NCBI RefSeq assembly: GCF_032362555.1
Contig: NC_083522.1
Location: 6,798,001 to 6,862,000, forward strand
Length of the DNA: 64,000 bases
DNA from: Amyelois transitella
Lineage: Eukaryota; Arthropoda; Insecta; Lepidoptera; Pyralidae
Reading direction: 5' to 3'
Made by a program: the position numbers and the translations under genes. The notes below the pieces were generated by a model, which made no database searches, was not told the DNA's origin, and saw only the letters and a program-made list of their open reading frames with translations. Within the stretch, counting starts at the first letter, position 1. Every line of letters begins with the position of its first letter. Shown piece after piece: positions 4,751 to 60,865 of the stretch.

Positions 4751-7700
4751 ATGTCGGGTAGCAAAATTGAAGCACTTAAAAGTAAATTAATGTCTGGTAA
4801 GATATTCGCAACTACATTTTTTTATCATTAACTACCATAAGAATCCAGGTCTTCTACCATTCCAGGAGACAAAGCCAACAGTCTCGAAAAGATTAAGGCC
4901 ACGTTCAGGTTTGAGATTCCTTTGTTTATATACGTACTAGTTACTGCCGTAATAGCGACTATGGGAATAGGCACTTTAAATTAGTGCAAGCTTTCATGCA
5001 TAGTAGTAAAACAGGTAAAAAAGCATGAAGCAGCCGCTGCTTTTCCCAGCTGATTGTAATACATACATACATATATATAGTCACGTCTATATCCCTTACG
5101 GGGAAGACAGAGCCAATAGTCCCGAAAAGACTGAATGGCCACGTTCAGCTGCTCTGCTTAATGATGGAATTGAGATCCAAATAGTGACAGGTTGCTAGCC
5201 CATCGCCTAAAAAAAGGATCGCAATTTTATAAGCCTATCCCTTAGTCGCCTTTTACGACATCCATGGGAAAGAGATGGAGTGGTCCTATTCTTTTTCGTA
5301 TTGGTGCCAGGAACCACACGGCACCAATACAAATTGTAATCAAGGCAATCAAGGGAAACGCTTATATATGTACTTGGGATTTTATAACTATTTTTTCGAC
5401 ATTATTTCAGCTACAAAAATAAAAACACAAAAAGACTTTCAAGTTTTCAAACTTCGCAATAAGGAACGATCTTTAATAGAAGAGCTCCATTTGATAAAAA
5501 CTGAAACAACATTTTTGAAAAAGCAATTAGAGGTAAAACAGTTTCCGAGGGAGATGCAGTTGGCACGCACTTTTCTTTGTTTTGAGCGTGCGCATGATAA
5601 ATCTGCATATTCCCATGATCGTCTTTTACAACTTTCACGGGAATCTTATTTAATCGCTGCCTTTTATTTTTTTCGAGTTTGATAGCTCAATTTGCACCGC
5701 AAGGGGTAAAAATGATAAATGTAAATACTTTATTCTTGCAGGAGTTAAAAGATGCATTAACACAAATCAATCATCAGATATCCATGATCGACATATGCAA
5801 GGCGTCGGAAATGGCTAAAATAGAGACGCAAATAAAAAATTTGCAAGATCACAAAAAGGGGTACCAGATAATCTTTGACAAAGGTTTGTAGACGCATGAG
5901 ATAAAATGTAGAAATATTACATCGATGCCTTATTCGCCAGGGAAAGATTTGTATAAGATAAGTTTCAAGATAAGTTTAAGATATTTATTGGCGATGTAAA
6001 AGAACCTATATAGTAAGGTAAAGAGACGTCAAGAAAATATTGCCTCATTTCGGTGATTATCTAAGTATTTTTTTATAGAGCGCCATCTATAGGTTTTCTG
6101 AAATTACTTGGCAAAAGCTTGTATAAATTTCTTATAGAGCGCCATCTATTGGAGGAGTACAATAAGAAACTAAAAGAAAAAGATGCCGCAGAAGAAGAGA
6201 CCAGGAAACAGAAAGAAGAAAAGATAGCAGAGAAGAACGAGCAACAAGCTCGGGAAGCGGCCGCGGTGGAAGAGGAATGTGAAGCATTGGAGCGAGAATG
6301 TACCGTCTTGAAAGTAAGGGCGGTATCCGCTTAACTTACCATCAGTAGCTTTTGAAGATGCTATTTCTTAATAAAATGGAGACTGCTTACCTGTATTTAG
6401 TATCTTCTTAGTAGCTATCAAAGCATCGTTGTCGGTATTACATGGATTTACTAACTATGGGAGCTTGTTACGATTACGACCCACAGCATCAACTCACTTC
6501 AAGGCATCTAACCGCGTCATCGATTTAGATAGCCGGCCGGGCGGCAATAAGTGTCTCATATCATACATAATATAGGTACGGCCCGCGATTTCGTTCACCT
6601 TAATAAATCGTTAAAAATCTGACCCTTGGAGGGGAAAATTTTTTATGTCAATTTTTAAGTTGGAACACGCCTAATATGTACATAAAAAAACTGTATTCAA
6701 ATATGAACAACATTATCGCGTTATGCGTGTACAAACATATAGACAGAGAGACAGAAATTTTTTAAAATTACATTTTTTTGCTGCTACTGGTCTTATATAG
6801 ATTTCCATATCGATTTTTGTAGTTGTATTGGTCAGTTTCAATTTTAATAATGTATGGATATGTATGCCAGATACACGTGGGCCATTTTCCCATAAAAGTA
6901 TTTAATTGTCATTGCTATTTACAAATGTACTAGTTAAAGCTATGTTGAATTCACCGTCAAACTCAACTCTTTTTCAGAAAAGAAATACTGCTATAATGCT
7001 GAAGCTACGGCGAAAATTGGTAGAAACTAGTGTCCGACCGAAGGTCTATTTTTGGCCGAAGCCGAAGCCGAAGCCGATTAATCGGCTATCGCCACAACCT
7101 TCGGCCGAAGCCGAAGCCGAAGCCGAAGGTTTATATTCTCTCAGCACTCAGTAATTAATTTTGTTCAATATTGTCTACAAGCTACAATTAATATTAAAAT
7201 CATTTCAAAACCTCAATATTGATGGTTTATATATTGACTGTCTCATATAGAAGTTGATGATATATCATAGAGGTGGTTGGTTTAGAGATAAACTAGCTGT
7301 TGCCCGCGACTTCGTCCGCGTAAATTTCGAGTTGAATTTTAATCATACAGACAGACAAAAAAATGTAAAAAAAAATTCTCTATCCGTTTCAGTCAAAATA
7401 TTAAATGTACAGAAAAAATATTTTTACCGTTTTATTATATGTAGTATTTCGATTTTCAGTTTTTTTACATAAAATACTCAAACAATACAAAAAAAATATA
7501 TTTTTAATAATAAAAAATATCTTGTAATTGTTGAGATTCGAACTTGGACCGCCAACTTCACAGTCTCACGGGCTAACCACTGGACCATCGAAGCCGTTGC
7601 GTTGGTGTCGAAATTAAAGTAGACTACATATAGTCACGTCTTTATCCCTTGCGGGGTAGACAGAGCCAACAGACTTGAAAAGACTGAATGGCCACGTTCA

Positions 7701-8554
7701 GCTATTTGACTTAATGATAGAATTGAGATTCAAAAATTGATAGGTTGCTCGCCCATCGCCTAAAAAAGAATCCCAAGTTTGTAAGCCCATCCCTTAGTCG
7801 CCTTTCACTTATATTTATATGTTATAGGTATAATGCCGTCGTATAATGATAAATGACTTTGAATTTTTAATTTCGTAACTTATTTGCAGGCATACTGATG
7901 CCTTGAGTTCATTCAAATGTCGATAACTTTTTTTTTGTGAACCGATTTTGATGAAACAAACTTTAAATGTTATTCTGAGTTAAAACAAAGCAATTGGTGA
8001 AAGTTTGAAGTAAATCGGTTTAGTACTTTCGGAGATAATCGTGATCATACATACAGACAGACAGACAAGAAATTAAAAAAAAATATTTTTGCTTTCTATT
8101 ATTCATTCTAAGTGTCCCTCTATCCATTTCAGTCGAAAATACTAAATGTACAGACAAAATATTTTTACTGTTTTATTATATGTATAGATAAAAGTTTGTG
8201 ATTTACCTACTGGTAAAAAATAATGATTTGATTTCTTACAAAAACACTCGTTTAAATACACGTACTGACTTGTTTTGATGCATGCAATCAGCAATGAAAT
8301 ATTTTGACAGTGACTCCCCGCCGCCTCATGACTTTCGTAACAGTTCGTTCAATCTCGACGGTCGCTCGGACCTTCGGCGAAACCTTCGGCTTCGGCCGGA
8401 TTTTGGGCCGAAGCCGAATGTTTCGCCGAAGGTGGATTTTTTGGCCGAAGGTGGCCGAAGCCGAAGCCGAAGCCGAAGCTTCGGTCGGACACTAGTAGAA
8501 ACAGAAAACATCAGAAGAGATCTTCTGAAATGTAAAAGTCAAGAAATATGCTAA
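4751..8554 (+). CDS. small coiled-coil protein, last exon split by a transposon
   Basis: Coding exons by splice phase: 4751-4796, 5411-5532, 5742-5883, 6138-6313, and a last exon 6978-7027 continuing at 8503-8554. Without the insertion the reading is 195 residues plus stop. The protein starts MSGSKIEALKSKLMS and is almost wholly charged heptad-rich coiled coil (for example RHLLEEYNKKLKEKDAAEEE). No signal peptide or membrane segment is visible. I do not recognise the family; kinetochore, ciliary or cytoskeletal coiled-coil proteins are all possible. In the sequence as given, the last exon is cut by the element at 7028-8494. Translation would run from codon GAA into transposon sequence and stop at 7152-7154. 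A separate possible end is read-through of the exon 4 donor, giving a stop at 6332-6334 with AATAAA at 6370. Confidence 0.72.
4865..4921 (+). repeat. partial copy of dispersed repeat family R
   Basis: The stretch from gagacaaagccaacagtctc to ggccacgttcaggtttgag matches the middle of the repeat seen in full at 5075-5336. It lies in intron 1 of the coiled-coil gene and is truncated on both sides. Confidence 0.6.
5075..5336 (+). repeat. dispersed repeat family R, near full-length copy
   Basis: Starts near tatagtcacgtctatatccc, continues through gacagagccaatagtc, ctagcccatcgcctaaa and cgccttttacgacatccatg, and ends at ggaaccacacggcacc. At least seven other copies or fragments lie in this window in both orientations. 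It is a very common element in lepidopteran DNA. There is no coding capacity; the class (SINE-like or LINE-tail) cannot be set from this window. It lies in intron 1 of the coiled-coil gene. Confidence 0.8.
6575..6890 (+). repeat. dispersed repeat with 'cccgcgatttcgtt' head
   Basis: Begins near ggcccgcgatttcgttcacc and runs through cttggaggggaaaa, ttgcgtgtacaaac-like and agacagagagacag stretches typical of a widespread lepidopteran interspersed repeat. It fills intron 4 of the coiled-coil gene between exons 6138-6313 and 6978 on. Confidence 0.55.
7528..7600 (-). repeat. tRNA-derived SINE head (degenerate)
   Basis: On the minus strand an A-box-like TGGTCCAGTGGTTAG is followed 25-30 bases later by a B-box-like GGTCCAAGTTCGAATC, in tRNA spacing. 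The anticodon stem does not pair, so this is not a working tRNA gene. It lies inside the hAT-like element 7028-8494. Confidence 0.5.
7627..7806 (+). repeat. dispersed repeat family R, truncated copy
   Basis: Matches the copy at 5075 from tatagtcacgtctttatccc through cttagtcgcctttcac. It lacks the terminal ggcac part and is nested in the hAT-like element. Confidence 0.75.
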
Positions 8555-9455
8555 ACAAAATTATATAAATAACCAATACCTACCTAGATTTTTTATGAAG
8601 TTGTTTTGTTGAAAATTATTGAAAATAAAACAAATTCAACATTAGTCCCATGATTTATTAAATAGTCACACAAAGCAAATAATCACAACACATTATATAC
8701 AAATAAAGGAAACATTTAAAATTAAAATATAAAATGCATTGATAACGAAACAACTACATAACATACAATTACAACATCTAATAACAAATAACTCACATTC
8801 AGGGCTTTTAAAATACAGTAGTATGCATGCATATTGCCTAATATGATCACAGTGAATAAAAAAAGGATGGCAAAATTTGGATAAAAGTTAGTTTGTCACG
8901 CTTTAATCATTCAATTCGCAAAAGAAGAACACTTTCTCTGTGTGAACCATAATGTTTTAGTGAGGATTTAATAATTTTCAATTGGAAAATAATACATTTT
9001 ACGACCTACGATCATTCCACCTGCATACTTCTTTTACTTTATTCATAACTAGCTGTGCCCGCGTCTTCGTCCGCGTGGAATAGTTATTTTGGGCATCTTT
9101 GAAGCCCTCACGGATGAATAATTTTCCCCGATTTTTTCACATTTTCCATTATTTCTTCGCTCCTAAAAGTTGCAGCGTGATATTATATAGCCTAAAGCCT
9201 TCCTCGATATATAGTCTATTCAACACAAATAATTTTTCAATTCGAACCAGTATTTCCTGAGATTAGCGCGTAAAAACAAACAAACAAACTCTTCACCATT
9301 ATAATATTAGTATAGATTTTTTCATACAGACTTGTCGGTTTAAGGCTTTCTTAATATCCGCCAATTCTTAGTCTATTCGAGAGGGTACACAATATATACT
9401 ACTACAAAACATCGCCCCCAGTCGGATTTACTTCGTTATTTATAATTATTATTGT
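8555..9455. other. convergent 3' region between coiled-coil gene and dynein gene
   Basis: No coding sequence. A plus-strand AATAAA at 8624-8629 is well placed as the poly(A) signal of the coiled-coil gene. A minus-strand AATAAA (9038-9043) could serve the dynein gene. Positions 9047-9317 are an interspersed repeat. Confidence 0.6.
9047..9317 (+). repeat. lepidopteran interspersed repeat
   Basis: Starts actagctgtgcccgcgtctt, includes gaagccctcacggatgaata and ttgcagcgtgatattatata, and ends attataatattagtatagat. This full arrangement is a familiar interspersed repeat in lepidopteran genomes. It has no coding capacity. Confidence 0.75.
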
Positions 9456-12400
9456 TCAGTTATCGAGCTGCAACAATAATGCTACACTTCTTTTGATCCA
9501 ATGAGCAGACGGTTTATCTGAAGGCAAATAAAAAGCTAATACGAAATTGGATGAATGGCCAGTAGTAGCAAGCACACCTTTTCTTTCCAATGTCTTGTAC
9601 AAGGGACATCTGTATCGAGTGCCTTCCTCAAATTCGTTCTTCAGTTTTGGATATAGCCACATTGCTGGCATGTTGTCATTCAAAATCTTAGGCAGCTGTT
9701 CTCCAATAGCATGTGTACCACGATCCCAACGTCCACCGTCCATAAACAAACCTTGAACATAGACGCCCCATTCGGGAGGTACCGTCTCGTAATCCACTTT
9801 ACGTACGTCAAAATCAAAAATAAGCAAGTCTATGGGGATCTTTTTTGCTCTTGCAAAATTTTGCACAGAACCCGTAAGAAAAGCTTGTGTGAAGAAGAAT
9901 CCAGATAGCCAAAATGTTGGAGGTTTCCCATTCTGGTACCAATCTTCTAACATTGCCAAACGTTCTACAAAATCCGTCACATAACTAGGTAATGGCTTTA
10001 AACTGGGATAAGATACTTTCTTCCAATTGTCAGGAATTCTACCGAGAAGCATGTTAGTTGATTGCAAATCCAAAGCCGGTGACATAACGATTAAACCTTT
10101 TACTGCTTTTTGTAGATCTAACAAAGAATTTCTAATTTCATTTAGTAGTTTGTTAAATCGTTCCATTTCTTGCACTAGAACAGTGTTCATAGATTCGTTG
10201 TAATCAACAGGATACTTCTTTTGTGCCTCCTCTATATCAAATCTTTTCGGTAATTTCGACAGAATTTCGGCAGCCATTTGTACAAGAATAACTTCAGTGT
10301 TACCTCCTTCACCACCGCTTCCAGTTCCCTCAACAAGAACTAATGAAGCAGCAAGATTCATGGATATAGTGTAATCCCGAGTGATGCCTGCATTCATATG
10401 TAATCCATAAACTTCAGGCGGCGGGTTGACAGGGACACTCTCTATATGTTTGAGATAGTCTTGATATTCACATCTTCTTGGTAATCCGTATTGAGGACCA
10501 ATATCACAAAATAAGTAATTAGGATCATTTACCACTCCTGGATTAACATAGTTATCCAGAATTGTAACAATCAGTCTTCTATCCCAATCATCTGTTACTC
10601 GACCACCATAGTTGCACTCTCCAGTCAAATATTTTATTGCGACATACTGTATTTCTTCATATTGATTAAGAAACATTTGTAATTGCATAACGGATATTTG
10701 AAAGTCTGAATCGTTGAATCCATACTGAATATTCCAACCTAGAGGACCAAATTTTTTTCTTTCTTGTACGACAGCATGAAAGAAGCTTATGCCGTATAAG
10801 AGTTTACTAAACGGTTTATCCTTGTCGGGACATCCCTCATAGAATTCAGGCTCTTTTACCGGTTCAGAGATATAAGATCTGTTAAGATTATGTTGCAGAC
10901 CTGTCGGTGGTTCGTTTGTCATTTTTACAGCAACTTGCAATACGGACTGTGGAAATTTATCGGAAGGATAGCTTGTTAACCACAGCCTAAAACTGAGGTC
11001 GGTATTGGTAAGGTCAAAGCCTTCAACAATTTTTTCCAGTACTGGTAGCCATGAAACGGCTAAATGACAGTTTTGTAAACATACCCATCCTCCTTCTAGT
11101 TGAGCTCTTTCTATCATAGCCCTTGCTATAGGCCCTTGACCTTGGCCTAAAGATATAGAATTAAATCTATGTGAGTAACCCATTCTTTCACAATATTTAA
11201 TTAGCGCGCCCATTGGATCCGACCCAGGAGATAAAATAAAGATCAGAGGAGCAAGGCAATTTGAATCTCCGAATGATTTGCTGATGTCGAACGGAGGTGG
11301 AGTAATATATTTACGGCCTAACTGCTTTTCAACAAAATCTGAAATTGCGATTGTCAGTTTGTCAGGTCTCAAAATTCTTATTACCAACAATTTTTGGAAA
11401 ATGCTTAGTTTTTCTTCCCACACTCCGGGAATTGGTTTTGTGTGGGGTTCAATATCATCATAAACCTCTTGCCATTTTACAACATCTTTGACAAAACTGT
11501 CTCTAAATCCAGCATAGGCAGGCAAATCATTCAACCGACATATTTCATCCCAATTTTTATCAGGCAACCATTCCACAGGTTTTTTCAAGGTGTTTTCAAC
11601 AGCTATACCTCCGGTGATAAGGAACAAGTACTCTTCTTGTGTCATTTCACCAGTAGACAACATCATTTTAGAACACATAATAAATGAAAACATGAGTTTA
11701 TCTTTATCGAACAGTGAACGACAAACATTGCTATACAAGTTATAAGTAAAAGTGTCTTTCAGAAATTTTAATCTTTTGTCTAAATCTTTTGATTTGTTTG
11801 CATTTTCAATTGATATTATATATAGATTTATAAACCAAGTTAATGAGTATTGATACATTGGGTCTACATTTGGTAATTCAGTAACACAGTAATACAGTAC
11901 AGCTGAATGAGACGCTATTGGCCTGTAACCAAGTCTAAATTTTTCTATTATTATTTCCGTTTCCACACTAGCTTCTTGTTTTTTCATTATGTCGATAGCT
12001 AGTAATTTTGAAGAATCTAATACTTCAATGGCAGTCTCGTCTTCTAAAATATCGCCTTTCGATTCTTGTAATGTTCGTAAAATATCGTCCTCGACCTGTT
12101 TCAGAGCAGCTCGATTAGCAGCACCTTGAACAATTAGTTTTTCTCGTTTTTCTTGCAAATCTGGTCTCTCTTTTGCAACAACTATCCCCAATAATTGATC
12201 TTCTAAACCATCTTTAGTCAACGCAAAATTTATCAATGTCACTTTGTTGAAAACTTCCGGCAAATAATGAGGGTTTCTAAGTTTCGTAGTCATATACAGC
12301 CTAAAATTTGGATGATACTCAATAACATTATCACCTAAAGCAATGTATTCTTTGCCACCCTGCACATATGTATGCTTGAGTAGAACAGGATCTAAAGGTG

Positions 12401-15400
12401 CTTCTACATCTTCTAGAATACAATCTATTAAAGCAGGTTTTCCATATTCCAAACATGTTTCTATTACTTTCATATAATTACCATCAGTAAATTTAAGAAC
12501 TTGTAAGTCGTTTGCCTTTTCCATAGTTTTAATCCATTTATTTGCCTGTCCTTGTGGATCAACCAATAATGACCACCTCATGGAACTATCTTGGATAATA
12601 GCATTGTCGATTGAAAATGAATCACGGGGCAATCCAGCTATGCACCAATTTTGAATTTTTATGTCCGTACCCAAAATATCTTTGAATACAAATACATCAG
12701 AGTGAGGCATGTTCATTTTGATAACAAGTTTACACCATTTTTCAATTATATCTATTCTAACTGGTAATGTGTAAGGAGATAAATAAGCAATTATACCACA
12801 CGATACTAAAATATCACCTGCTAAATTATCAAACAAAAGTTGCAAATTTTCTGCAGCAGTAGTCCAACGTACTTTTTCGCCGCCTAATCCTCCAATGAGT
12901 TTTTCAGCTCTATAAAGTTTATCTATACATAATTGAACTTCATCCTCCAATGCTTTTTTCTTGATATTAGCTTCTTCTAATGATTCATTTAATTCCGCAA
13001 GTTTAGCTTCGAGTCTAGCTACTGTAGCTTTTTTCTCTTCTAATATAGCCATAGTTTCTGAAAATTCTCTTTCCGCTGCTTCTAACTTGGCCTTTTTTGG
13101 CGCTACAACTTTTGCCACCGCATCATACATGTCCATAGCTATAATCCATTTACACAACCCCTCCGCTGCTGCTGAGGCTTTTGCAATAATGTGTGGCTTA
13201 AAATCTTTATTCGATAAATATTCTTTTCTTATTTTTTGCATTGTAGCAACTGGGATATTATCTTTATCATAGTTCCTCAAAGATTCTAAAAACGACATAT
13301 CTCCTAAAACTCTTTTGCTAGGTCCCCAATAATCAAATATCTTTTTTCCTGGGTTATCAGGATCTGGTATTTTATCAGGAGGAATACCTTTCATTACGCA
13401 TACAGCCGCCATTACTAGCTTTACAGTTGCTGGAGGGTTTTTCATAGATTTTACAATGGTAATATCAGCTGGCTTCAAAGTATTCAAGGCCGCTATAGCA
13501 TCTTCTAAAATGGGTAGTGCGAGTGCCAAATCTGCTTCGCAATCCTGTTTTAGTTCTTGGGCAGCAGCTGCTTGCACATTTGCAATCTTTTGATCCTCTC
13601 TGACCTGAGCTGCAGCTTTATCTGCTATTGCCGTTTCCCTTTCTATTTCTGCCATCATTTTAGCAGATTTTTCTGCCATTATCATTAGCTGAGGTTTGAG
13701 TGCATTCAAGTCACGCTGCATTATTGACACTGCATCCGCTGCTTGACCAAGTTTATCTAAACCGTTGGTATATCTCAGTTTAGCTGCCCTTAATTCTCTT
13801 TGTTTTTTATTAGTTAATGTTGTAAAAGATTTTATCAAATTGAGATAGGATGCCGATGTTATATAAGTTTTACGTCCATATTGGCTAAAAAAGCTAGCAG
13901 ATACAATGCGCGCATCTACATGAAATTGCTTGCATGCTATAACTGCAGAAGCTTTAACAGAGTCCGGTACATTTACTTTTACCATATAATAATGAGCGAC
14001 CATCTCTAAAGCATCTTCCGGCCAACTATCGTACCAATCAATTGTACAGCAATTAACTAAGGACGGATAAAGTCTTAGTCTGGTTCTGAAAGAACTTCCG
14101 ATGGGGCTAAAGCAAAGGACAATATGTAGCTTAGCTTTACATCGCCCTATGAAGAAAGACATAATTTGCAATGGACCTATATCAAGATTTCTGTTACCTC
14201 CTTGAGCGGCTAACCTGACTAATTCGAGTATTTCTTGTTTTTCGTCTAATCCGTACAAATTAGGAACTTCTCCAGAATTCAACAAACTGTCTAAATTTTG
14301 GATAAAAGTTTCTTCTTTTATTTGACTTTCAGTAAATAAGAAAGTTGTATCTTTATTCAAACCACCAGATTCACGTAACACTAATTTAATATCATCATGC
14401 CAATCTTTTACGCTATATGCCTTGGTAATTTCTGGTTGGAAGACATTTTGCCCCAAAATAGTGCTAGCCAAACGAGTCAGTGACTGTCGCCCAGAACCAC
14501 CGACACCTACTAATAAAGCATTACCTGATGGCATAGATAAAAGGCGGCAAATTTTTGACAAATGTTCTAGTGCGTAATCGAATAATACAATTGTCATTTT
14601 AGCTTTGTGCATCGTATTATATTCTGCCAACATTGATATTGCTACGTTTAAAAACACTTCTTTAGTAGGAATCTCTTCATAACGACGTTCACCTTCTAAA
14701 CTCTCAGTATCTAAATAGGATCCAAACATCATTCTACGCACGGTCTCTTGGGTAACATCACCATTTTCGTTTTGATACGTATCTAAGGCTGATTCGAAAG
14801 TATCTTTCATATAGTCCCTTGTACATTTTTTGAGAATATCAAAGAACCAAGTTCTGTCAACATCATCTACTAATCTGTCAAAAAACACTCGCATGATCTC
14901 ATGAACCCATATTCTCACAAAAGTCTTTTTGTTATCAGCAGATTCTTTTCTTAATAATGCACAGCCTTGAATAACTCGGGAAATGTCTCTCAAGTTGAAA
15001 ATATAATGCGACTTAGCCGGTGTAGGCCTTAAACCCTCGGAAGCCTGATCATATATATCCATTGTGGCAGCAATTATATTCACAATTGCAGGCTGAGCGT
15101 CTTGTCCAAAACCGTTTCGCCTCCATCCCAATTGCAATAAGGACATAAATATTTTTGTCATACTTTCTCTGGAAAATTCATTGATAGAATAAATGTTGAA
15201 GTGTCGTAACATGCGAGGATATATTAATTGGCGACTTCCGCCGACTGGCCCAATAGCTCCATAAAATAATGTATCATAAATATACAGCTTTTCCGTAGTT
15301 TTAAGATCATACCAGTGTTTTTGGTCGAAATATAATCTTAATAATTCTATTGCAGGTTGAGCACCGTATACTTCCTTTGCAGGCATATTCATATCGTCAA

Positions 15401-18400
15401 TGAAAATGATAGCCTGTTTACCTTTAGTAGGACCGTAATTATTTTTTCTTCTTTTTACCAATTTTGAGATGACTAAGTCTTGTGTTTGATTAGCAGAAGT
15501 TGTAGTAGTGAAAGTAATAAAACCAGGTGTGTATTTCTCCATATCTAAGTTATTCATCAAAAAATTCTGAACATAGAAGCTTTTCCCAGTGCCAGTTGGG
15601 CCAATTAGTAATATAGGTTTTAGAAATTTTGAATGCAATTTTAGAAGGAAAATATATTTTTCTGTCTCTAATGTAGGAATTACAGTTTGTAGTAAATTTA
15701 TTTGTTCTTTGACCTGCACCGCTTTGACAGCTTCGGCCCAAGGTTTCCAACATCCTTTTCCTTTATACATATAGTAATGGTCAATAAGCATGCCCTCTGC
15801 CGGAACTGACACATCGAGCCTGTCCATATCAGCTGGAATGCCCTTTTCTCCTCTAAAGTATTCTTTTACCACCTCATCGAACTTCTCTCTTGAATCAGTA
15901 TTTAAAATACCACCAACGCCCCAAACGAATGCGGTCATACATGATGCTAAATACCAAGTACGAGTATATCTTGTATCTTCTTCTCCTTCTATAGCATTAT
16001 CCATTAACATTTCAATAAGGCGAAGTGTGCTAATTACTAAATTAACTTCTCCACCTGTTACCAATTGCGAGCAATATTTTCTTACATAATAAATTAATGG
16101 ATCAAACAACCAATCACATATATCAAAAATAAACTCTTCATTTTCTTCAAGCCAATATGGGTTAAGTGTTTTTACCCACGATTTGTAAAATGGCATAAAG
16201 CCAAGTGAAGAGGATTCCATATAAATCATACCACACCGAGACACCGTAGCTGGAGAAGCTTGTGATAAATCCATTACTTCAAAGATCATCGACATAACGT
16301 TTGACATTGCCATTACTTCTCCAGACGTTAAACATAATTTTTTATTATCATCTAAAACTGTGTTCATATTTTCAATCCAAACTGCATCTACGGGCCCATC
16401 AAACACTATCCACTTCCTTACTGGTGTATCGTCAGATGCGAAATCCCTGAATGTAGTCGCCACTATACCATCTGTCCACTCGTAAGAAATGGGATCAAAA
16501 GCTCCATAGAGTTGCCCCATTGTCACTGCTTTAGGGTTTAGTACTTTATACATAGATGCACATCCACCTGGTTGCTTTCTTTCCTCCATAAGTGTTAACG
16601 CTTCAGCCAATGTCTTTAAAGTCATTGATTTTCCGGAGAAAGGATCACCCACCAACATAAATCCGTGCCTCACAATCATCATTTCGTATGTCTGAATGAT
16701 TTTTATTAAAAATGTTTCCATTGGCTGTAAATTATTTATTTCACAACAATCCCTACAAGCTGTTAAAAAATTATCATAATCTGGTTTTGGTAAAGAAATT
16801 CCAGGAAATAAATCTGATATAATACCTTCGAATAGTGGGACATCAAAAGACAAAAACTTAGGTAGATTTACGTCAGTGATGGATCTAAGTAATAATATAC
16901 TTTCGCTTTCATTAGGAAAACTTCTTTTTAAATTACCAGCAGCTGAAAGGACGGTTTTTACTGCCCGCATACCATAGTCATAATGATTTTGAGATGAAAG
17001 TTGTTCTGAACAAAGCCGATAGGTTGTGACGATTTTTATAGATAAATTACGAGCGTCTATAAAACCAAATGAATATAAAGAAATTTCACCAATCATAGCA
17101 TAATCTGGAACCATCATGGCTACGGTTCGGAATAACACCTTTAAATTATCAGGTAATTCGGATCGCCCTGCGTATCCAGGATTCATCGTTATACATACGT
17201 AACAAGCAGGATTCAATGTCAAAATTGTGCCTTCGAAATCAAAAGTTTCCAAATGTTGTCTAACCGCCTGTACTATGCATAAAATTTGTTGAGCTATTAC
17301 AGACAATACTTCAACTTCAATTCTATTGAATTCGTCAAAACAAACCCAAGCGCCACAAGACGCTAAACCTTTGAAAAACTTGCCCATAGCTTTGTAGTCT
17401 AATCCATCTGAACAATTAAATACAACGCATTGAACAGCAAGAGCTTTGGCCAAATCTTTAGTGGTTTCAGTTTTGCCAGTTCCTGCAGGTCCTTCTGGGG
17501 CGCCATTCAGATGAAGATAATAGGCCCCTATTAGGGTACGGTAACAACGGTCCGTCAAGGGCGTGATCACTAATCTATCAGAATTACCTAAATATTCATA
17601 AGCGTAATTTACGACAGCATTAATTATTTTCACAAATACCCTTTCTTCTTCCCAATAATAACGTAACTGTGCAAGCCACTGAAAGTCTGTCACTTCAGTC
17701 ACATTTTTCCCTACTAGTTCAAATATAACATCTTTTGCATGCACATCTATTACAATAAGTGCTTTGACAGTAATACTGCTTAGTTTAGTTAAATCGGTAC
17801 GCCGAATGATTGCCACAGTCTCATTCAACTGTTTAGTCAAACTAACATGGAACGCTTGAAGTTCGCTCAATTTGTGGGTATGCAAAGCTTCATGAACGTC
17901 TACTGCCCAATATATTTGAGACACACCTAAAACAACCATGCCTTCCCATTGCAATATCCATTCTGCTCGCCCCAAATTTGGATAATCATAATAAGATAAT
18001 TCTGTTTCTGATTTAACAGCTGCTAACATTTGCTCTTCTACCTGTACAAGCCATTTCTCAACTGAACCTCGAGCTGCAGCGACACTTATTATTTCCAAGA
18101 ATTCGACTTGTTCTCCCTCCATCGATATCATTGCAGATATATTAAACTCTACGTCAAATACTAGACGGTTAATGCCTTCAAAACATTTTTTCAAGTGAGG
18201 CTGCACTTTTAGAGGATTTTTAGTCTCCGACAATATTTCCAGCATTTCGTCGTTCGAAAGAAAGAAGAATCTTGGAAAGTACAATCTTTTCTTCTCCAAA
18301 TAATTATTCACACCATCGTTTATCTTTTCTAACATAGCCGAAGCTATTTTAAACGACTCTAAAACTCCAGCTCCACCAGCTATCTCGAGTGCATGAGGAT

Positions 18401-21400
18401 CTTTCTCCACAGAACCCATGTACCGGCGATAAATATTATTAACTTCGACAAACATCACTCCTTCCTCAGGCATTTGAGCTACAATATCTTTTGAAGAAAA
18501 TATAGGTAGCAAATAAAGCCATTGGCTTTGTACTTTACCCCATTCATCAATCGTAGCATTAACTCTTATTATTTTCTCATACCAGGCTCTTACTTGAGTT
18601 TCAAATGGTTTAACAAATGCAGATCCTCGCATACCAATCGTTTTTACTATGTGATCATCTAATACGCTCTGAATGTCATCAAGACCCGAAAGTATAAAAA
18701 TGCCAGTATCTTTATACGGGCTTGTCTTGAAACATATATCAGTCCACTCGGCAATCATTTTATTTAAATTTGTTATCAAAGCCAGTTCTTTAGTAGCAGC
18801 CACACTTATAATTTCATATTGATCTATTTCATCCCATAAATCAAAATTAATAATCTTCCGTAAAGTTGTACCTGCGGTGGGGGTTAAATCAAAGCCAGCT
18901 ATTGTAGACATTTCGTCCCAATGTCTTTGAACTAATGCCGGATTACACATAATGTGAGCCATCTGTACATTCGGTCGCCAATTCTTTATTTCTACTGTAG
19001 CTTGAGCACATAACTTCATCGGTGCAGGAAAATTATTAACATCTGGGTCATCTACCAACCCCTGAAAACGTTTCTCTACACCTTCTGCAATTTGTTGTTT
19101 TATTTTAGCTTTATAGTTTTTACCTAGCTTTAGGAACTCTTTATAGTAGAAATCATGATCTTGTTCTATTTTTTCATGATCCATGTACTCAAAGGGTCCA
19201 TCCATCCAAGTATAATAACTGCGTTTCCAGCGGTGAACTAAATGCACAAGACTATAAAATGGCAAGACAAAATCTTTTAACTCCTCTAGGTCAGGGTATG
19301 CAGTAACAGGAAATTTAAACGTAACTTCTTCATTGTTAATCCATGCTACAATTTTATCACAATCATCTAGTCTGTGTACAAGTTTCCTTAAGTATTCTAA
19401 ATACTCTAAAGTATTTTCAATATCATCCATGTTATCTAGTAATTCAAGGTAAGGTGTCATTTCTATTACTTCCCTATTTAGGAATGCGATTTTTGACAAT
19501 AGATTCTCTTCCATTTCGGCCTTAAATGTTTCATAAGCAGCAGCGTTTTTATCAAAAATCGGTTTTATGTCTTTGAGCCAGTTAACTGTTCGTGTATTTG
19601 ATTTTACATGTTCTGGAGTCAGTGAAGTCATTTCTAAAAGATTTGAAATAATGTTGATTTGGGCCATTATCCTTTCTTTTAAAGCTTCAACTAAAACCGT
19701 TTTTGCGTGTAAAATGTAAACCCCTTGTTCTATTAATTCTGCAGCATTTTCTGGTTCTTTTAATGCCTTTGCGGCTATTATTTCAAATTCTGAACAAATG
19801 CTGTCATTTTCTTCTATATGCTTTTTTACTATACCGCCTATTATATCATTTACGAATTCTAATGCCTTGCGTTTCAAACCATCAACCATTCTTAATTGAC
19901 ACACGACTGCACAATTAAAATATTCATTTTCCAAAACAGCGGTTATTTCCGAATCTATTGACTGGAAGTACTTTATTTTGTCACGGCCAACTTCAAATTC
20001 ATCGTTTTCTGATATAAATTTCTGAAGTGCTTCTTTAGCTGGAGCGCCGTAAAGCATATCATACTCGCGTCTTAATTTTGCGGTGTAATCTAGAAGGGGT
20101 TGAAACACTATATCGAGTTGTTCCTGAAGCCTTTTATGACCATCTTGGTGTAGCCATTCGTTGTAGTGCACGGGTAAAGCATCATAGCTATAAGGAATTC
20201 TAAGGTATTGCTCTATAGGCATCAGTCTTTGCGATATGTTCGATATTGCATTTGCAATGTTATGGTAAACTTCATAAACCGTTTCTAGTGTAGGATCGAA
20301 AAAGAATTCACCGTCAAAATCTAATGCTATGTTAAGTATAGGAACAGTCTCAGGATCTTTTAGTGAATCTATAATAGCATCGATGGATCTACGCATAAGT
20401 TCTTGTATTTGCATTGATATCATTTTTGTTGCGCATATCACAAAATCTGGAATCTTTTTCGGTCGTAGGCCCTTTAGGCATCGAGGATTTTTAAGCCAGT
20501 TGACAAGGATGGCATACCATGTGCTCGATACTAGGTAGTCAGCCTTCTTTATTTGTTCTAATATTTTTGCTTGAAATACGTCTAAATCCATGGGCCCTTT
20601 AGCCCGGTATTTAGCTAAATCTATTATTGCTGCCGGGAAAGTTTTCTCAGACGACTCTAAAACTAACCTGATGAACGGATGTAGGAGAAGGGATCCATCT
20701 TTGAGTTTCTTTCTGTATTTGAGCATTTTTTCGTAATTGGCAGTGACACCATTGAATTTGAAGTACGGTTCTTGGTACCGCTTACGAGAGACGCCGGGGA
20801 CGTCGCGGATGACGGTCTTGACTGCGAGCTCGTGGAGGTTGCGGTTCCAGGCGCTCTTGCTTTCTTCTATCAGTTCTTCCATGACCTGTGGATAGGCTTG
20901 TCTCTGTTTAAGAGGCACTAGGCTACGTATCTTGGTTTCCCAGGAGAGCAGCATGGGGGGCGGCTGTATCTTCTCGGCACACTCTCGGAGTACGGCGATG
21001 TGCCGGGATTGAGAGATCTCGAGCCGATCTCGCTCGCGCCGAGGAAGTGGCGGCCGCGCTATTTGCACCTTCCTTTCGGTAGCCTTCTCCTTCAGGACCT
21101 TGTGAAATTGAGCTCGCTTTTCCTGGAATCATAATAAAAAAAAGAAATTCAATTCTCAGAGTTAGATATGTTAAATTTTTCCTGACGAACACCTCGTCAG
21201 GAAAAAAGAACAAGAACTCGAATTTGTCACTCATGGTTACCGCCGAGTGGAATGTTGACTGACACAATGAGAGTCCAAATTAAATACCGCAACTTCGTAC
21301 TTTTAAAATTTCAACGAATGTATAAAATGTTGCGAGTTTCGGTTGTTCGTTACACTCTCTTAAGATTTTGCAAATTTTCACGAAAGCGAAGGCATGTGTT

Positions 21401-28277: not shown

Positions 28278-31200
28278 ATTATAATTCGACAACTCTGTCA
28301 TAACGGAGCGGTTACGCGAAAGCCGAGAGGACCTAAATCGCCTCTAAACGTTTCGCCCGTGGAAGGATTTGGGTGCCCACCACGCTGTAATTACCCAAGA
28401 AAAACTCTTCATGGAAAGTTTAACAGTGCGGAATAGTTCGTTGGACGATCCGATTTACAATCGGCGCCTTTCGGTTACCGGGCCGGAAGGTGTGAAATTG
28501 GCTACCGAAGCTGCTGCTGAGACGGGTCGCCGGGTCTCAGTTAGTGGACATGCTACTGGTGAACCTAAGAAAAATATCTCTATCCAACGACATCAACGGA
28601 TTGCTACCTGGAACGTCCGAGGCCTTCTGGCATCGGGGAAGCTGGATATTGTAGAAAAAGAAGCAGAAGAACATAAACTGACGTTACTGGGGATAACTGA
28701 AACGCATATGAGAGGCCAAGGTCACCAAACGACCTCAAATGGTAACACTTTATATTATTCAGGATCTACAAATTCCAGTTTTTGCGGTGTCGGTATGTGG
28801 ATCCCACGCTACCTGAACAACTATGTGCTGGGATACAACCCAGTTAATGACAGAATACTGACCCTCAGAATAAACACACGCCCTTGCACGCTTAACATAG
28901 TCGTGGTATATGCACCAACGGCAGATGCGATTGATGAGGTCATAGATGATTTCTACACATCACTGGAATCAACGCTTTCCAAAATACCTGGTCGCGAAAT
29001 AACTTTATTGATTGGCGATTGGAACGCAAAGGTAGGCAACACTACTCTCGATGATCACATAAGGAGCGTTGTCGGAAAATATGGGCTCGGTAAAAGAAAC
29101 GAGAGGGGAGAAAGATTGTTGGAATTTTGCATCGAAAGAAAAATGACGATCATGAATACATGCTTTCAGCACCACCCAAGGCGTCTTTATACGTGGATTT
29201 CCCCTGGAGATCGATACCGGAATCAAATCGACTACATCATTATCAACACTCGTTGGAGAAGCTCTATTTTCAATGTGAAAACATTCCCAGGTGCTGACTG
29301 TGGTAGTGACCACTGCCTCCTTGTGGCCGGATTTGCTTTGCGTTTGAAGTCAGTCAGAAAGGGTCCCCCTTTGAGACCGCGCACACTACATCCAGCTGAA
29401 AAATTAGCATTCAGGGATGAAATGAGCTCTGCCCTAGCAGTTCAAATGCCTCCGACAAGCGCAAATGCGAATGAACAGTGGAACCACCTTAAAGAACTGG
29501 TACACAAAACAGTAGACAAAATATCCGAACATCGAGTAAAACCCAATCGACGGCAATCTTGGCTCTCTGATGAAACGTGGGGTAAAATCCAAGACCGGAA
29601 AGAGGTGAAAAAGTCTGGTTTATCTAAGCAAGAAGATCGTGTCGCATATTCGGAATTGGGCCGACTAATACAACGCCTGTGCCGCCGCGATAAAAACAAT
29701 TTCGTTGGGAACATTTGTCAGGATATCGAGAACCATGCGCGAAAAGTACAAACAGCGGACCTCTTCAAGAAAGTAAAGCTGCTCTCGAAGCAATCCAAAC
29801 CCAAAACATGGGTTGTGGAAGACGAGAATGGAACCCGGCTGCAGGACTTGGATGAGGTGGCTGAAAGATGGCGGAAATACTGTGAGGAGCTCTACAAAAA
29901 TCCTCTCGATAACTCAGAACCTCCAACGCAATGGGAGAGTGGTCTTGCTCTGGAGCCGCCTATTCTGCTTTCAGAAGTAACATCAGCGATAGCTGCCCTG
30001 AAGGATAGAAAGGCACCTGGACCTGATCAAATAACAGCAGAGATCATAAAAGCAATGGGAATTGAGGGCGCTAAAGCAATTCATGAAATCTGCGACGCTA
30101 TTTGGCGCACTGGAGAATGGCCCCATGATTGGGCTAAATCAGTCATTCTCCCGCTTCATAAAAAAGGCTCAACTACCAAGTGCGAAAATTACAGAACTCT
30201 AGCCCTAGTATCACACGCCAGCAAAGTATTATTGCACATTATCAATAATAGAATCCGCTACTTCCTGGATTGGCAGATACCACAGGAGCAGGCTGGCTTC
30301 GTCAGGGGCAAGGGCACGCGTGAGCAGATCTTGAACGTACACCAAGTGATAGAGAAGTCGTATGAGTTCAACACTCCCACCATCCTGTGTTTCATCGACT
30401 ACAGCAAGGCTTTTGACTGTGTTACCTGGTCGATCCTATGGCAGATACTAGAAGAACTTGGTGTACCTAAGCACTTAATAGCATTGATCCAATCACTCTA
30501 CCAGAACAGCCAGGGTGAGGTAAAGGTCGAAAAAACTACTTCCAAGCCTTTTAAGTTTGAAAAAGGCGTCAGGCAAGGTTGTATATTATCCCCTGTTCTA
30601 TTTAATATCTACGGAGAGTATATCATCAGACGGACTCTGGAAAACTGGGAAGGTGGTGTCACGATCGGCGGCACCAGAATCACAAACCTCCGGTACGCTG
30701 ATGACACAACCTTGTTGGCAGCTAACGAGGCCGAGATGATGAGCCTCCTTACTAAAATGCAAAAGATCAGCATGGACTTGGGCCTCAAAATCAACCACTC
30801 TAAAACCAAAGTCATGGTAGTTGACCGCGCCAACTCACTCCATCTGACTGGTGCTCTGGGTCTGGAAACGGTGGATAATTTCATCTACTTGGGTGCTAAT
30901 ATTAGTAACACAGGCTCATGTGAAAAAGAGATCAGGAGACGCATTGGCATGGCCAAAAATGCAATGTCTCAACTGGAAAGAATCTGGAAGGATCGCAACA
31001 TATCTCGGAAGACGAAGATCTCGCTAGTGACCACTTTAGTATTTAGCATCTTTAGCTATGGCTCCGAAACATGGACTATAAAACAAGCAGATCGTAACCG
31101 CATTGATGCTTTCGAGATGTGGTGCTGGAGAAAGATGCTCCAGATTCCATGGACTGCATTTCGCACAAACAGGTCTATTCTTCGTGAACTCAACATCCAA

Positions 31201-31512
31201 ACTAGGCTTTCCACCATCTGTTTACGAAGAATCCTGGAATTTTTTGGCCACATAGCCCGCAAAGATGGCGACAATTTGGAACAGCTGATGATCACCGGCA
31301 AGGTAGAGGGGAAACGATCAAGGGGACGTAGCCCACTTAGATGGACTGACCAAATACGTTCGACTCTGGATAAGGACCTACATGAGGCGCTCCACACCGC
31401 TAAGGACCGGGCAGGGTGGAGAGACGTAGTGCGCTCTAAACTGACTTGTCTCCGGGGAGTTCACGACCCTCAGTAATGAGGTTTACGACGCAAGAAGAAG
31501 AAGATTATAATT
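28278..31512 (+). mobile_element. full-length RTE-like non-LTR retrotransposon
   Basis: Flanked by the exact 9-bp duplication attataatt (28278-28286 and 31504-31512). The element body is 28287-31503. It has a short 5' UTR, a single ORF (28369-31476), a very short 3' UTR and a terminal gaagaagaag tail rather than poly(A), as in many RTE-clade elements. It lies about 0.6 kb upstream of STIMATE, on the opposite strand. Confidence 0.88.
28369..31476 (+). CDS. LINE ORF: endonuclease plus reverse transcriptase
   Basis: An intact 1035-codon ORF. Residues about 75-330 are an apurinic-type endonuclease domain (ATWNVRGLLASGKLD, ITETH, LIGDWNAKVG, NQIDYI, SDHCL). Residues about 530-800 are the reverse transcriptase, with FIDYSKAFDCV, KGVRQGCILSPVLFNIY and the catalytic RYADDTTLL. 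The C-terminal region contains MWCWRKMLQIPW and SRGRSPLRWTDQIR, as in RTE-like insect elements. It encodes the machinery for target-primed reverse transcription of its own RNA. No frameshift or stop is seen, so it may still be active. An RTE-clade label is by overall resemblance; a related clade is possible. Confidence 0.93.
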   Translation: MGAHHAVITQEKLFMESLTVRNSSLDDPIYNRRLSVTGPEGVKLATEAAAETGRRVSVSGHATGEPKKNISIQRHQRIATWNVRGLLASGKLDIVEKEAEEHKLTLLGITETHMRGQGHQTTSNGNTLYYSGSTNSSFCGVGMWIPRYLNNYVLGYNPVNDRILTLRINTRPCTLNIVVVYAPTADAIDEVIDDFYTSLESTLSKIPGREITLLIGDWNAKVGNTTLDDHIRSVVGKYGLGKRNERGERLLEFCIERKMTIMNTCFQHHPRRLYTWISPGDRYRNQIDYIIINTRWRSSIFNVKTFPGADCGSDHCLLVAGFALRLKSVRKGPPLRPRTLHPAEKLAFRDEMSSALAVQMPPTSANANEQWNHLKELVHKTVDKISEHRVKPNRRQSWLSDETWGKIQDRKEVKKSGLSKQEDRVAYSELGRLIQRLCRRDKNNFVGNICQDIENHARKVQTADLFKKVKLLSKQSKPKTWVVEDENGTRLQDLDEVAERWRKYCEELYKNPLDNSEPPTQWESGLALEPPILLSEVTSAIAALKDRKAPGPDQITAEIIKAMGIEGAKAIHEICDAIWRTGEWPHDWAKSVILPLHKKGSTTKCENYRTLALVSHASKVLLHIINNRIRYFLDWQIPQEQAGFVRGKGTREQILNVHQVIEKSYEFNTPTILCFIDYSKAFDCVTWSILWQILEELGVPKHLIALIQSLYQNSQGEVKVEKTTSKPFKFEKGVRQGCILSPVLFNIYGEYIIRRTLENWEGGVTIGGTRITNLRYADDTTLLAANEAEMMSLLTKMQKISMDLGLKINHSKTKVMVVDRANSLHLTGALGLETVDNFIYLGANISNTGSCEKEIRRRIGMAKNAMSQLERIWKDRNISRKTKISLVTTLVFSIFSYGSETWTIKQADRNRIDAFEMWCWRKMLQIPWTAFRTNRSILRELNIQTRLSTICLRRILEFFGHIARKDGDNLEQLMITGKVEGKRSRGRSPLRWTDQIRSTLDKDLHEALHTAKDRAGWRDVVRSKLTCLRGVHDPQ

Positions 31513-56700: not shown

Positions 56701-59700
56701 CAAAATTGGTCTAATGATTTAGGCGCAAAAGCGTAACAGACTTCCGTATTTAAAATATTAGTATTGATTCTGATGGTAAAGAAGTATTAATTTTACCGCC
56801 ACCAATACTAATGTAATGCTATATATAATTGCAGAAAACCGGCGCGAAGCTGAAGATCTTCTCGAACCCCGCGCCGCAGAGCTCGGAGAGGGTGGTGCAG
56901 CTCGTGGGGAACGCCGACGCGGTGGCGGCCGGAGTGCGCGAGGTGCTGGACCTCATCAGACAGGTGGGGGTTTGGCACTAAATTGTATAACATTATACTC
57001 GACAGTATCTGGATTGTGCAAGTAAGGTTTTTTACACGAAGCCCGACTCGATTCCCGTCCGTCAATCTCCGCAACTCTACAAGATTTCATGGTAACAGTT
57101 GCCTGAATTTTTTTTGTACGAGTATACTAGCTAATTGGTTAAGTAAAAATAGGCGGTGTTGGTCACATAGTGCTGGATTAGAATTTACAGATGGGACTCA
57201 CAAACCGAGAAAACTTAGTTGCCTTGTTGTAGCTTGGAATGCGTTAGAGGAGGTTTATGTTCTGCAGTGGACGAAATTAGACTGCAAATTGAGAAGTGAA
57301 ACAGTGCTGTTAGAATGAAAAACACTAAAGCAAATTTATTTTCATTCCTCTTATTTATTGTTTACTTAGTTTTTAATTAATATTCCAGGTACCAATCAAA
57401 GGGCCCATCCAAAACTACGACCCCCACAACTATGATGATTTCTACGCAGACGAGTATGGCGGCTTCGGAGGAGGCGGCGGAAGGGGACCGCCGCGCGGGG
57501 GCCCCGGCCGGCCCTCCGCCAGGCCCCCGCCCGGGCCCAGCCGCGGGCCCGGCGGGCCCCGGGGACCGATGTCGAGGGGACCCCCACCAGGACCCACTGG
57601 AGGTAGGTCGCTGCTGCTAGGAATACACCTTTGGCTTTGACAGCGTGAAACAAATATGGAGTTTCACTGTATGTAACCACGGTCCTTAATTAAAAATAAG
57701 GTTTTTACACGAAGTCACATCCATCCGCACATCTTTTCTTCTAGTTGCCTAAATGTGCAAGGTTCTTCACGTCACGGGATTCATTTACGGTAACCTTTTA
57801 CAAGCATTTGAAATTACAATTGCAGGTCCCCGAGGCTTCGGCGGCAATGATTTCGGCGGTCCGCCTCCGCGTGGCAACTTCGGTGGCGGCGCCCCGCGCG
57901 GGGGCTTCGGCGGCGGCTTCGGGGGGAACTTCGGCGGCGGCGGGGGGGGCTTCTCCAGCAACGGGGGGCAAGAGACCTCGACGCAGGTCACTATTCCTAA
58001 GGATGTGAGTAGTCTTTTTTATTCACAATTTTTTTCGACGTGGTTATTGATAGTAGTCAATTCTTCTTCGCGATTGTTAGCGGTGCCGCCGCCGTAACCG
58101 TGCCGCGAATATGAAATTCATAACACATTGTCTTCACCTTCATGCCCTACTATTTTCAAAAGCGTTTGGTAATTGATGTTGTTTATCTTTTTCTATAATT
58201 TTGCGTATTCCTAATTGACTTGGGGTCCGCTTATCGGTCGTTCTGTTCCCACGTAGTCCACTTTTTAGAATTCTTAGTTTCCATTGGTACCTACATATTT
58301 CTTACTTGGCTACTACTTTCGACAAAAGTACAGTCGCCGGTACGTGAATTCACTTTTGCGTAGTTTCCAGATGTTAATCGGGATGAAGGTATACGAAAAG
58401 TGACTCCCTATCTTTTATCGACCATGACATGGTCTTTCTAAGACATACTGGTAATGTTAAATTAATAAAATTGCAGCTGGCCGGCGCGATAATAGGCAAG
58501 GCCGGCACGCGCATCCGCAAGATCCGCGCGGAGTCGGGCGCCGGCATCGAGATCGCGGCGCCGCTGCAGGGCTCCAGCGACCGCATCATCACCATCACCG
58601 GCACCTCCGCCAGGATACAGAAGGCGCAATATCTGCTGCAGCAGAGGTATTATATATTTTCGCTCCTCCCTTCAGAGAGCGCAGTATGTACTGCCGGGGA
58701 GGTGAACTGCATGCTCATCTTTTCAAAATATATTTGGGGATATGAAATGAAAACATGACCCACCATCACCCGACTTTTACAGCAAACTGCACGCTCGTCC
58801 TGCATTTATCGACCTTTACAAGCAGGATCGTCGGTTTTGAGTACTTGTACTCATAAAATATTACTTGGGAATAGGATAATACTTTTGGGAACAGGGAACG
58901 ATGCTTTTGCGGTGAGGGAAAACTGCTTGTCAGAATCCAGAAGGCTCAGTATGTTACAGCCCAGGAAATTATTTGACGCGAAATCAACCTAATCCTAATA
59001 TTTGGGATACGAATCAATGAATTTTTGCGGCATCGCATGCATAAACTTCATAAAGCCAGACGGCAGTTCCTTCATGTTATTTTGAAATTCCTGGTATTCA
59101 ATCTGAATAATATGTATAATGTGAAAAGATTTGCCAAATTTACCTTTGGGAATAACAGTACAGATGTAACAAATGACAAAAACAAGCTTTTCTTTATAAT
59201 TCTATAAAATATGATAAAGCTTATAGCTTTAAAAAATTAAAGTATTGCATCAATCAATATGTTAACATCTTTATAATCATTACTAACACGCATTGTTTTG
59301 ACGCTAGAATGTTTGAAGAGTTCCCTGAGTTGGCCCCAAACAAAGCTAAAATGTAATTCAATGCTTGCAAAATTGATCGTTTCACTGGCCCGATTACAAA
59401 CACCAGGTAAAACACAGACTTTTGTAGATACGTATAGAGTGTTACTATCATTCCTTGTTGGGCCTTGTAGAAATATAATTAGTATGACAGTCATTTATAA
59501 ATCAATTGACATTTCTCATGGGATATTCTAAGAGTAATGGGTTGTTTTTTTTCCTGTAGAAATCATTTGTCAATAATAATTTTCATTTTAAGTTGAACAG
59601 TAATAATAACACTGGTCGGCAAAAAAAAAAGTCCGGGAGCAAAAATATTATAGTATGTAATTCTTATTGGCTTTGGTTAGCAGAATGCAAATCTGTTTAC

Positions 59701-60865
59701 AGATTTATGCTACCACGTCTAGTTTTCGAGATACTGCCGTTGAAATAAAATACCGAAATTTAGATATATATAATAAAATACCTACTTATTTTGAAAAAAA
59801 AAATTAAATTACAATGTTGAAAATATACCTATTAATTAAAAAATAAGAGTTATTTTGTACTTTTATTCTCGATTTATTCTCCAGCAAAAATCAGCTAACA
59901 TTGCTGGGGTCCACTTGCCATTATATCTTTTTTCCATGTGGGCAATGTACCAAAAACCAAATTAAAACAAACAAATTTTTTATAACTTTCTCCACAAGTT
60001 CAAGCTCACTAATTCAAAACAATCATTGCGCTTGCGCATGTGTTTGTTAGTTAGCAAGCTGTTGTTTACAATTAACTAACCTATCTCTTTCTAACACAGA
60101 GCTAAATACAGAATACAATGACAAACATGCGAAAAACGTTTACGAATACCGTTGCCTTTATCGAATTGTGACGAATTCTAGCGAAATCTAAAAAAGCTCT
60201 TTACATCAAAATTTTACGTGATGGACAAATTATCACCACATATTTTTAGTCTGTCTATACTGTATCGAGTTCACATATTCACATTATTGCTCTGATTTTG
60301 ATGCCGACCAGTGTAACCTTTTCATGGGAGAACGTTTTCTTTCGTCATTCATGTTTGACTATAATAATGTGAAATTATCATTTTATAAAACCACTTTTAA
60401 CAAATGGAATAATTTACATGTTGTTTAGAAGTTAAACAGTTACCAAGCCCATCATAATTACAATAAAAACGATTACTTTACATATTACTATAATTTTTGC
60501 TAAAAATGACGAAAGGAAATGTTAAATTACATGTTTGCTATGTAATTGTTTGTGATTAACAATATTTCTAGGTTTACATCAACTAACGGGCGTCGGTCGC
60601 GGCGCATTGTATGGAAGACTAGTGATTTTGTTGTTTTGATCTATTATAACAAGGAATCACTAATCTGCCTACAAAGCGCTCGCATTTTCTTCAGATGAAG
60701 ACTTCCTCACGCTGCTCTCCTGCCTCATCATTTTTCACTAACCCGTGTAACATCTTTCTTTTCTATTTGTTTTACATAAGCAAAATTTGAAAATAATAGA
60801 ATTTTATTTTTTTTCGCAGCGTGCACGAGAGTAACCCCCATCTCGGTCGCAGCAGCAACTTTTGA
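47762..60865 (+). CDS. HNRNPK: heterogeneous nuclear ribonucleoprotein K (bancal orthologue)
   Basis: Ten coding exons: 47762-47851, 48608-48664, 49599-49642, 50090-50165, 50309-50419, 56835-56963, 57389-57602, 57826-58004, 58477-58646 and 60820-60865. Phases match throughout; 1116 nt encode 371 residues. KH1 (about 24-89) has GKGG in [19 protein letters not shown]2 (about 99-167) has [19 protein letters not shown]3 (about 295-357) has [19 protein letters not shown]. Residues about 190-290 are a Gly/Arg/Pro/Phe-rich linker (RGG-like, GGFGGGFGG). Family knowledge: poly(C)-binding nuclear and cytoplasmic protein in splicing, transcription and translation control; the Drosophila homologue is bancal. 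Exon 1 opens with [18 protein letters not shown], whose basic stretch could be a nuclear localisation signal. The 6.4-kb intron after exon 5 has GC islands. AATAAA signals at 61258, 61263 and 61337 fit the 3' end. Confidence 0.95.
50590..50715 (+). repeat. LINE-tail fragment (family R2), degraded
   Basis: Contains gagcttgcatgaaaagatgg, gaatgtggatgaggcaaaga, aatatgctaggatcgtaaca and cccctaaggtaaagaggtgt. These match the better copy at 61945. It lies just after exon 5 of hnRNP K. Confidence 0.6.
52915..53175. other. GC-rich island in the long hnRNP K intron
   Basis: CpG-dense segment (for example gcgcgagggcggcgcgtcgc) in AT-rich surroundings, with no coding exon. It could be a regulatory region or an alternative promoter; only its composition supports this. 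Confidence 0.35.
54960..55530 (+). promoter_or_regulatory. GC island with possible alternative first exon
   Basis: CpG-dense tract with E-box-like cacgtg and CRE-like tgacgtg motifs near 55355-55370. It ends in gaaccgccATGAAG, a strong initiation context, at 55508, followed seven codons later by a GT donor-like site (55527). A promoter for a shorter hnRNP K transcript, or for an unrelated transcript, is possible. The frame from this ATG would enter exon 6 out of phase with hnRNP K. Confidence 0.35.
59610..60313. mobile_element. DNA transposon with CACTGGTCGGCA ends, 704 bp
   Basis: The left end CACTGGTCGGCA and the right end TGCCGACCAGTG are inverse complements, flanked by taa on both sides (59607-59609 and 60314-60316). 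A three-base TAA duplication is usual for PIF/Harbinger (TWA); CACTG ends with 3-bp duplications also occur in the CACTA/CMC group. There is no ORF, so it is non-autonomous. It lies in the last intron of hnRNP K. Confidence 0.72.

Follow-up and report, generated by a model that had tools for sequence, protein, structure and literature searches.

The locus and its predicted gene

The stretch of DNA analysed here (the window, 64,000 nucleotides) is C18:6798001-6862000 of the genome that we searched, which comprises 327 Mb in 33 contigs. Its repeats give the sequence a lepidopteran look. Near its left end, on the forward strand, lies a predicted gene whose last coding exon is most likely divided in two by a transposable element:

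4751-4796 (+): coding exon 1 (predicted); ATG start, GT donor, phase fitting exon 2
5411-5532 (+): coding exon 2 (predicted); AG/GT borders, open in phase
5742-5883 (+): coding exon 3 (predicted); AG/GT borders, open in phase
6138-6313 (+): coding exon 4 (predicted); AG/GT borders, open in phase; acceptor weak (-1.4 on a crude matrix)
6978-7027 (+): probable first part of the interrupted last exon; acceptor at 6977, frame from exon 4, composition; ends with the left target copy
8503-8554 (+): probable stranded remainder of the last exon, with the native stop; frame continues after one target copy, composition
8624-8629 (+): AATAAA, likely the native poly(A) signal

Exons 1 to 4 total 486 nt and encode 162 residues; their GT-AG introns have consistent phases, and they end in phase 0. 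The frame at 6978, where the acceptor ctctttttcag is followed by AAAAGA, is therefore set independently of the insertion. With the flanks joined at one target copy, the frame reads KRNTAIMLKLRRKLVETENIRRDLLKCKSQEIC, which includes LVETENIRRDLLKC, up to the stop at 8552-8554; this joined last exon would add 33 residues and give a coiled-coil-like protein of 195 aa. Exons 2 to 5 match this place alone in the genome, all other matches having E values above 3 (exon 1 is too short for genome matching), and a single-copy host gene with a coiled-coil-like product is the best explanation. Candidate names were rejected, as all Pfam matches fell below the cut-off (MAS20 0.0012, FlaC_arch 0.082, CENPH 0.52 and two weaker ones) and the PDB offered just two coiled-coil proteins, both weakly matched (E 0.05 and 0.2). 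No relatives of the gene were found in viral or prokaryote contigs, neither of which sets holds insects as such, and a search for tRNA returned none. A 17-mer, TATAGAGCGCCATCTAT, occurs at 6074-6090, shortly upstream of exon 4, and again at 6133-6149, where it overlaps the first bases of this exon; a short repeat may therefore be the origin of its weak acceptor.

Several other features share the window. Downstream on the reverse strand (9456-21128) is an intronless frame of 3890 codons with dynein domains, whose best match among solved structures is dynein axonemal heavy chain 12 (4281.7 bits). Its AAA_6 region has no second full-length match in the genome, where other dyneins appear in short exon-sized pieces. 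This frame looks like a dynein retrogene, and it may have replaced its parent. At 28348-31476 (+) a frame of 1042 codons with endonuclease and reverse transcriptase domains is apparently an intact LINE, and a mir-7 precursor lies at 60597-60683 (+; Rfam, 54.7 bits), with a frame that by eye is KH-like upstream of it at 58387-58758.

A 1467-bp element with perfect ends

The element and its borders comprise the following features:

7020-7027 (+): left target-site duplication GTAGAAAC; 8/8 identical to 8495-8502
7028-8494 (+): non-autonomous hAT-type element, 1467 bp; inverted ends pairing 16/16, aligned with 39 other copies
7028-7043 (+): left terminal inverted repeat TAGTGTCCGACCGAAG
7509-7514 (+): AATAAA within the element, putative premature poly(A) signal
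8479-8494 (-): right terminal inverted repeat, pairing 16/16 with the left end
8495-8502 (+): right target-site duplication GTAGAAAC; 8/8 identical to the left copy

An earlier sequence-only reading of this DNA had described a 1467-bp element between 8-bp duplications, and we recover it base for base, with perfect 16-bp inverted ends and perfect GTAGAAAC copies. Chance does not account for the element and its duplications: genome-wide, the exact end 16-mer was counted 323 times (164 forward, 159 reverse) and its reversed-sequence control 0 times. Arrays of the hexamer GCCGAA lie close to either end, and fragments of other repeats can be made out by eye inside. No frame of at least 90 aa lies wholly within 7028-8494, and the element is without transposase.

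In a genome search with the element, 40 of 6240 first-look candidates were scored and gave 40 copies, the window copy included; the other 39 were fetched with their flanks and then aligned. All 40 have the inverted ends, exact in 39 and differing by a single base at one end in L047; perfect 8-bp duplications flank 39 (the window copy among them), L043 being the exception. At L027 the duplication, CGGTCGGA, equals a stretch of the terminal repeat of the family itself. Judging by the 164 forward and 159 reverse ends, the genome likely holds about 160 complete copies. The end 16-mer had 0 matches in viral contigs, and a literature search with the first 12 bases of the element end gave no match. 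Apparently, this is a non-autonomous, hAT-type family without a name so far.

Among the end places listed, 96 could be paired into 48 elements on C1-C8; four unpaired ends, two of them on C9, were excluded, and apart from these two the family ends on C9-C33 lie outside the places listed. The 48 paired elements include one of 275 bp, one of 898 bp, 28 of 1348-1547 bp, 2 of 1755-1906 bp, 14 of 2110-2477 bp and 2 of 2734-2765 bp. A survey of Helicoverpa, in the part available to us, sets MITEs at no more than 800 bp (PMC9033116); the window copy has 1467 bp, and only 1 of the 48 paired elements is shorter than 800 bp. Four of the 18 members above 1.7 kb were fetched. One (L088) is related to the window element and longer; the other three (L089, L090 and L091) carry frames that by eye resemble reverse transcriptase. 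The frame of L091 matches RVT_1 in Pfam (2.2e-26), and the single frame scanned in L089 has no RVT match in Pfam. These three seem to represent a hAT-type element that took a retroelement along and amplified it.

Divergence from the majority sequence has a median of 0.61% across the 40 copies (range 0.14-1.25%), and the family is young and recently active. Over 1465 aligned bases the window copy carries 10 substitutions relative to the consensus, and 4 of them are private to it among the 40 copies. At the mutation rate estimated for Heliconius (2.9e-9 per site and generation, interval 1.3-5.5e-9; PMC4271535, as given in the part available), the 4 private substitutions would have taken about 0.9 million generations to accumulate over 1465 bp (0.5-2.1 million over the rate interval), a figure that is likely too high because the comparison covered just 40 of the roughly 160 copies and the branch may partly predate the insertion. 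So few private substitutions point to a recent insertion, which may be polymorphic. Levels of diversity typical of moths make polymorphism of so young an insertion plausible.

Assignment to the hAT superfamily

The element had previously been called hAT-like, and three of its features bear this out: the length of the duplications, the sequence of the ends and the target consensus. Duplications of 8 bp belong to the definition of hAT elements in the available part of PMC3942097, and they are perfect in all but one of the copies examined; short inverted repeats, for which the range is 10-25 bp, are represented here by 16 of 16 paired bases. Among 39 target sites, T stands at position 2 in 22 and A at position 7 in 28, and the duplication in the window, GTAGAAAC, fits nTnnnnAn, the target given for Hermes (PMC2803484, seen in part). 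These duplications and the short inverted ends are shared with Hermes and with Ac-type hAT elements; unlike those, the window element has 1467 bp, lacks a transposase and bears GCCGAA arrays near its ends.

As a yardstick for the ends, we fetched 20 hAT transposase regions from this genome and searched them for 8-bp duplications beside inverted ends that start with CA or TA, in pairs spanning the middle. In 11 of the 20, a [CT]AG.G pair with 8-bp duplications encloses the transposase match, as against 0 of 100 shuffled stretches. When the same search was run on 39 overlapping tiles of the window, any such pair was found in 2 and a [CT]AG.G pair in 1, which may be the element itself. The element's ends start with TAGTG, as do the ends of one of the hAT transposase regions (L078).

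No transposase stands behind the label. An autonomous hAT element has an open transposase frame and 2.5-5 kb (PMC3942097, same part); at 1467 bp and without such a frame, the window element falls outside this description. A set of 20 transposase loci, each about 3.2 kb long, contained no exact family end, and in a second set of 20 the sole exact end is that of an adjacent family copy. None of the 47 PF05699 matches listed on C1-C8 lies inside the 48 paired elements (maximum 2765 bp), and inspection of L088, L089, L090 and L091 by eye revealed no hAT transposase. At least 150 places in the genome match the hAT dimerisation domain, several of them in long open frames, and it is plausible that transposase is supplied in trans from elsewhere in the genome.

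Evidence for a probable split of the last coding exon

The sequence-only reading had proposed that the acceptor at 6978 is in phase with the preceding exon, that the frame resumes at 8503 and runs to a stop at 8552-8554 with AATAAA at 8624, and that removal of 1467 bp plus one GTAGAAAC copy restores a single frame. Phase 0 at the end of exon 4 confirms the first point, all the elements of the second are present, and the joined frame is indeed open to the stop. Its central proposal, a transposon inside the last coding exon, is most likely correct, judging by the phases of the gene and the composition of the restored exon.

Frame continuity contributes little to this judgement. A run of 17 codons is open in 33.5% of noncoding windows and one of 33 codons in 12.5%; since 17 open codons are expected in about 1 of 3 noncoding windows, the resumed frame is weak as a sole argument. 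We also rejoined the 200-bp flanks at the 39 sites with duplications and took the longest open frame across each empty site in six frames. The window site, with 57 codons, ties with two other sites and comes 21st in order; equal or longer frames at 20 of the 38 other insertion sites mean that the resumed frame proves little. Pfam gave no credible name to the flanks of L022 and L016, two sites with long open frames.

These figures lend some credit to an alternative in which the insertion is intronic or lies in the 3' untranslated region, the later frame is open by chance and the true end of the gene is at another place. Codon usage, for which the neighbouring dynein frame served as training set, does not count against it: the frame beyond the element has a neutral score of -0.08 bits per codon, reached by 31% of open windows, and the score of the whole last exon is reached by 7.7%. 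Exons 2 and 3, too, come out at about 0, and codon usage has little power as coding evidence here.

Composition is more informative. Our composition model was trained on exons 1 to 4 only and replaced an earlier helix score, which was discarded because it had been devised after inspection of the sequence. In noncoding windows, which overlap and come from a single 24-kb background so that the figures are rough, the 17-codon restored tail is matched by an open and equally exon-like sequence in 172 of 47,902 (172 of the 16,058 that are open), and the whole 33-codon exon in just 11 of 47,806 (11 of 5,962 open). Across the 38 other insertion sites there are 20 open frames of 33 codons, the best of which scores -3.7 bits, compared with +6.0 bits here. 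The composition of the restored exon thus appears to be stronger support than the continuity of the frame. Together with the good acceptor, in the phase that exon 4 demands, and a stop followed by AATAAA at 8624, it makes placement in noncoding sequence improbable; 6978-7027 and 8503-8554 are most likely the native last coding exon.

Predicted protein and transcript of the occupied allele

In the occupied allele, the host frame is predicted to run into the element:

7028-7154 (+): foreign tail read from the element in the frame of the host gene; 41 added residues, then a stop (translation)

The product would carry KRNTAIMLKLRRKLVET followed by 41 element-encoded residues, with the stop at 7152-7154, giving a predicted protein of 220 aa rather than 195 and the loss of 16 native residues. 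A foreign C-terminus of about 42 residues ending at 7154 had been proposed earlier; the end point stands and the count becomes 41, the difference arising because the codon AC/T, which specifies Thr in both alleles, had been included. The foreign tail is rich in proline and repeats, unlike the remainder of the protein, and scores -36 bits in the composition model.

Other endings could arise if splicing used acceptors within the element or if its right end were read into the host tail. Two acceptor-like sites in the element, at 7393 (6.8) and 8133 (6.5), outscore the gene's own four (-1.4 to 5.2) on a crude matrix, and from 8282 to 8554 the host frame stays open across the element's right end and through the native tail. 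Joined to exon 4, however, either of the two strong acceptors yields short tails only and does not restore the native one. No donor scoring at least 1 is present in 6978-7154 (the site at 7020 scores -2.4), and four donors scoring 1.2 to 2.5 lie further into the element; as the gene's own donors score just 1.4 to 5.2 on this matrix, the scores decide little about splicing either way. We regard such other endings as unlikely. Clean splicing-out of the element was rejected, since the exon has no good donor and the acceptors read by eye near 8504 and 8514 miss the frame.

The insertion might instead be fixed, with the foreign tail now the normal, functional C-terminus in the species. Exons 1 to 4 are still intact and the assembly holds this version of the gene alone, as such a history would predict. 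Over the age of so young an insertion, however, the 486 nt of these exons would have gained about 1.3 changes at most expectations of the private-substitution rate, so that their intactness says nothing about function, and the proline- and repeat-rich tail with its -36 bits speaks against a functional end. We consider fixation with a functional tail quite improbable. Its most specific form, in which an insertion that is fixed or under selection has turned the subterminal hexamer repeats (PKPKPK ... AEAEAEAE) into a new functional tail of an otherwise intact coiled-coil protein, strikes us as very improbable; if true, a very young non-coding hAT end would have been captured as a protein tail.

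Interpretation and comparison with known insertions

Taken as a whole, we think it quite likely that a recent non-autonomous hAT-type insertion has entered the last coding exon and replaced the native tail. On this account, a transposase encoded elsewhere would have mobilised the element in trans, and the element would have inserted into the last coding exon of the coiled-coil-like gene, duplicating GTAGAAAC. The transcript would now run into the element and translation would stop at 7154, so that 41 foreign residues would substitute for 16 native ones. The message may end inside the element (AATAAA at 7509) or downstream near 8624, and the allele is probably young enough to be polymorphic.

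Like the MITEs of the Helicoverpa survey (PMC9033116), as far as the available part describes them, the family is made up of DNA elements of moths that are non-autonomous, have inverted ends and are flanked by duplications; unlike them, it mostly measures 1.35-2.77 kb, and its window copy is most likely exonic, whereas the insertions in H. armigera defensome genes described in that part (Tc1/mariner and CACTA) are all intronic. A closer parallel in position is the LTR element Yaoer in SfCHS2 of Spodoptera, which has a 5-bp duplication and a genetically proven phenotype; its allele, found in 1 of 540 insects screened, is predicted to encode a truncated protein whose last 12 residues come from the element (PMC11249258, seen in part). 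Both cases involve a moth gene with a transposon at the edge of one of its coding exons and a predicted element-encoded end on the protein, and they differ in that ours involves a DNA element and an unnamed gene and is known from sequence alone.

The event is ordinary insertion mutagenesis, of a common kind, clean in its detail and datable. With its probable 160 or so complete copies, the family may provide presence/absence markers and knock-out-like alleles in the species.
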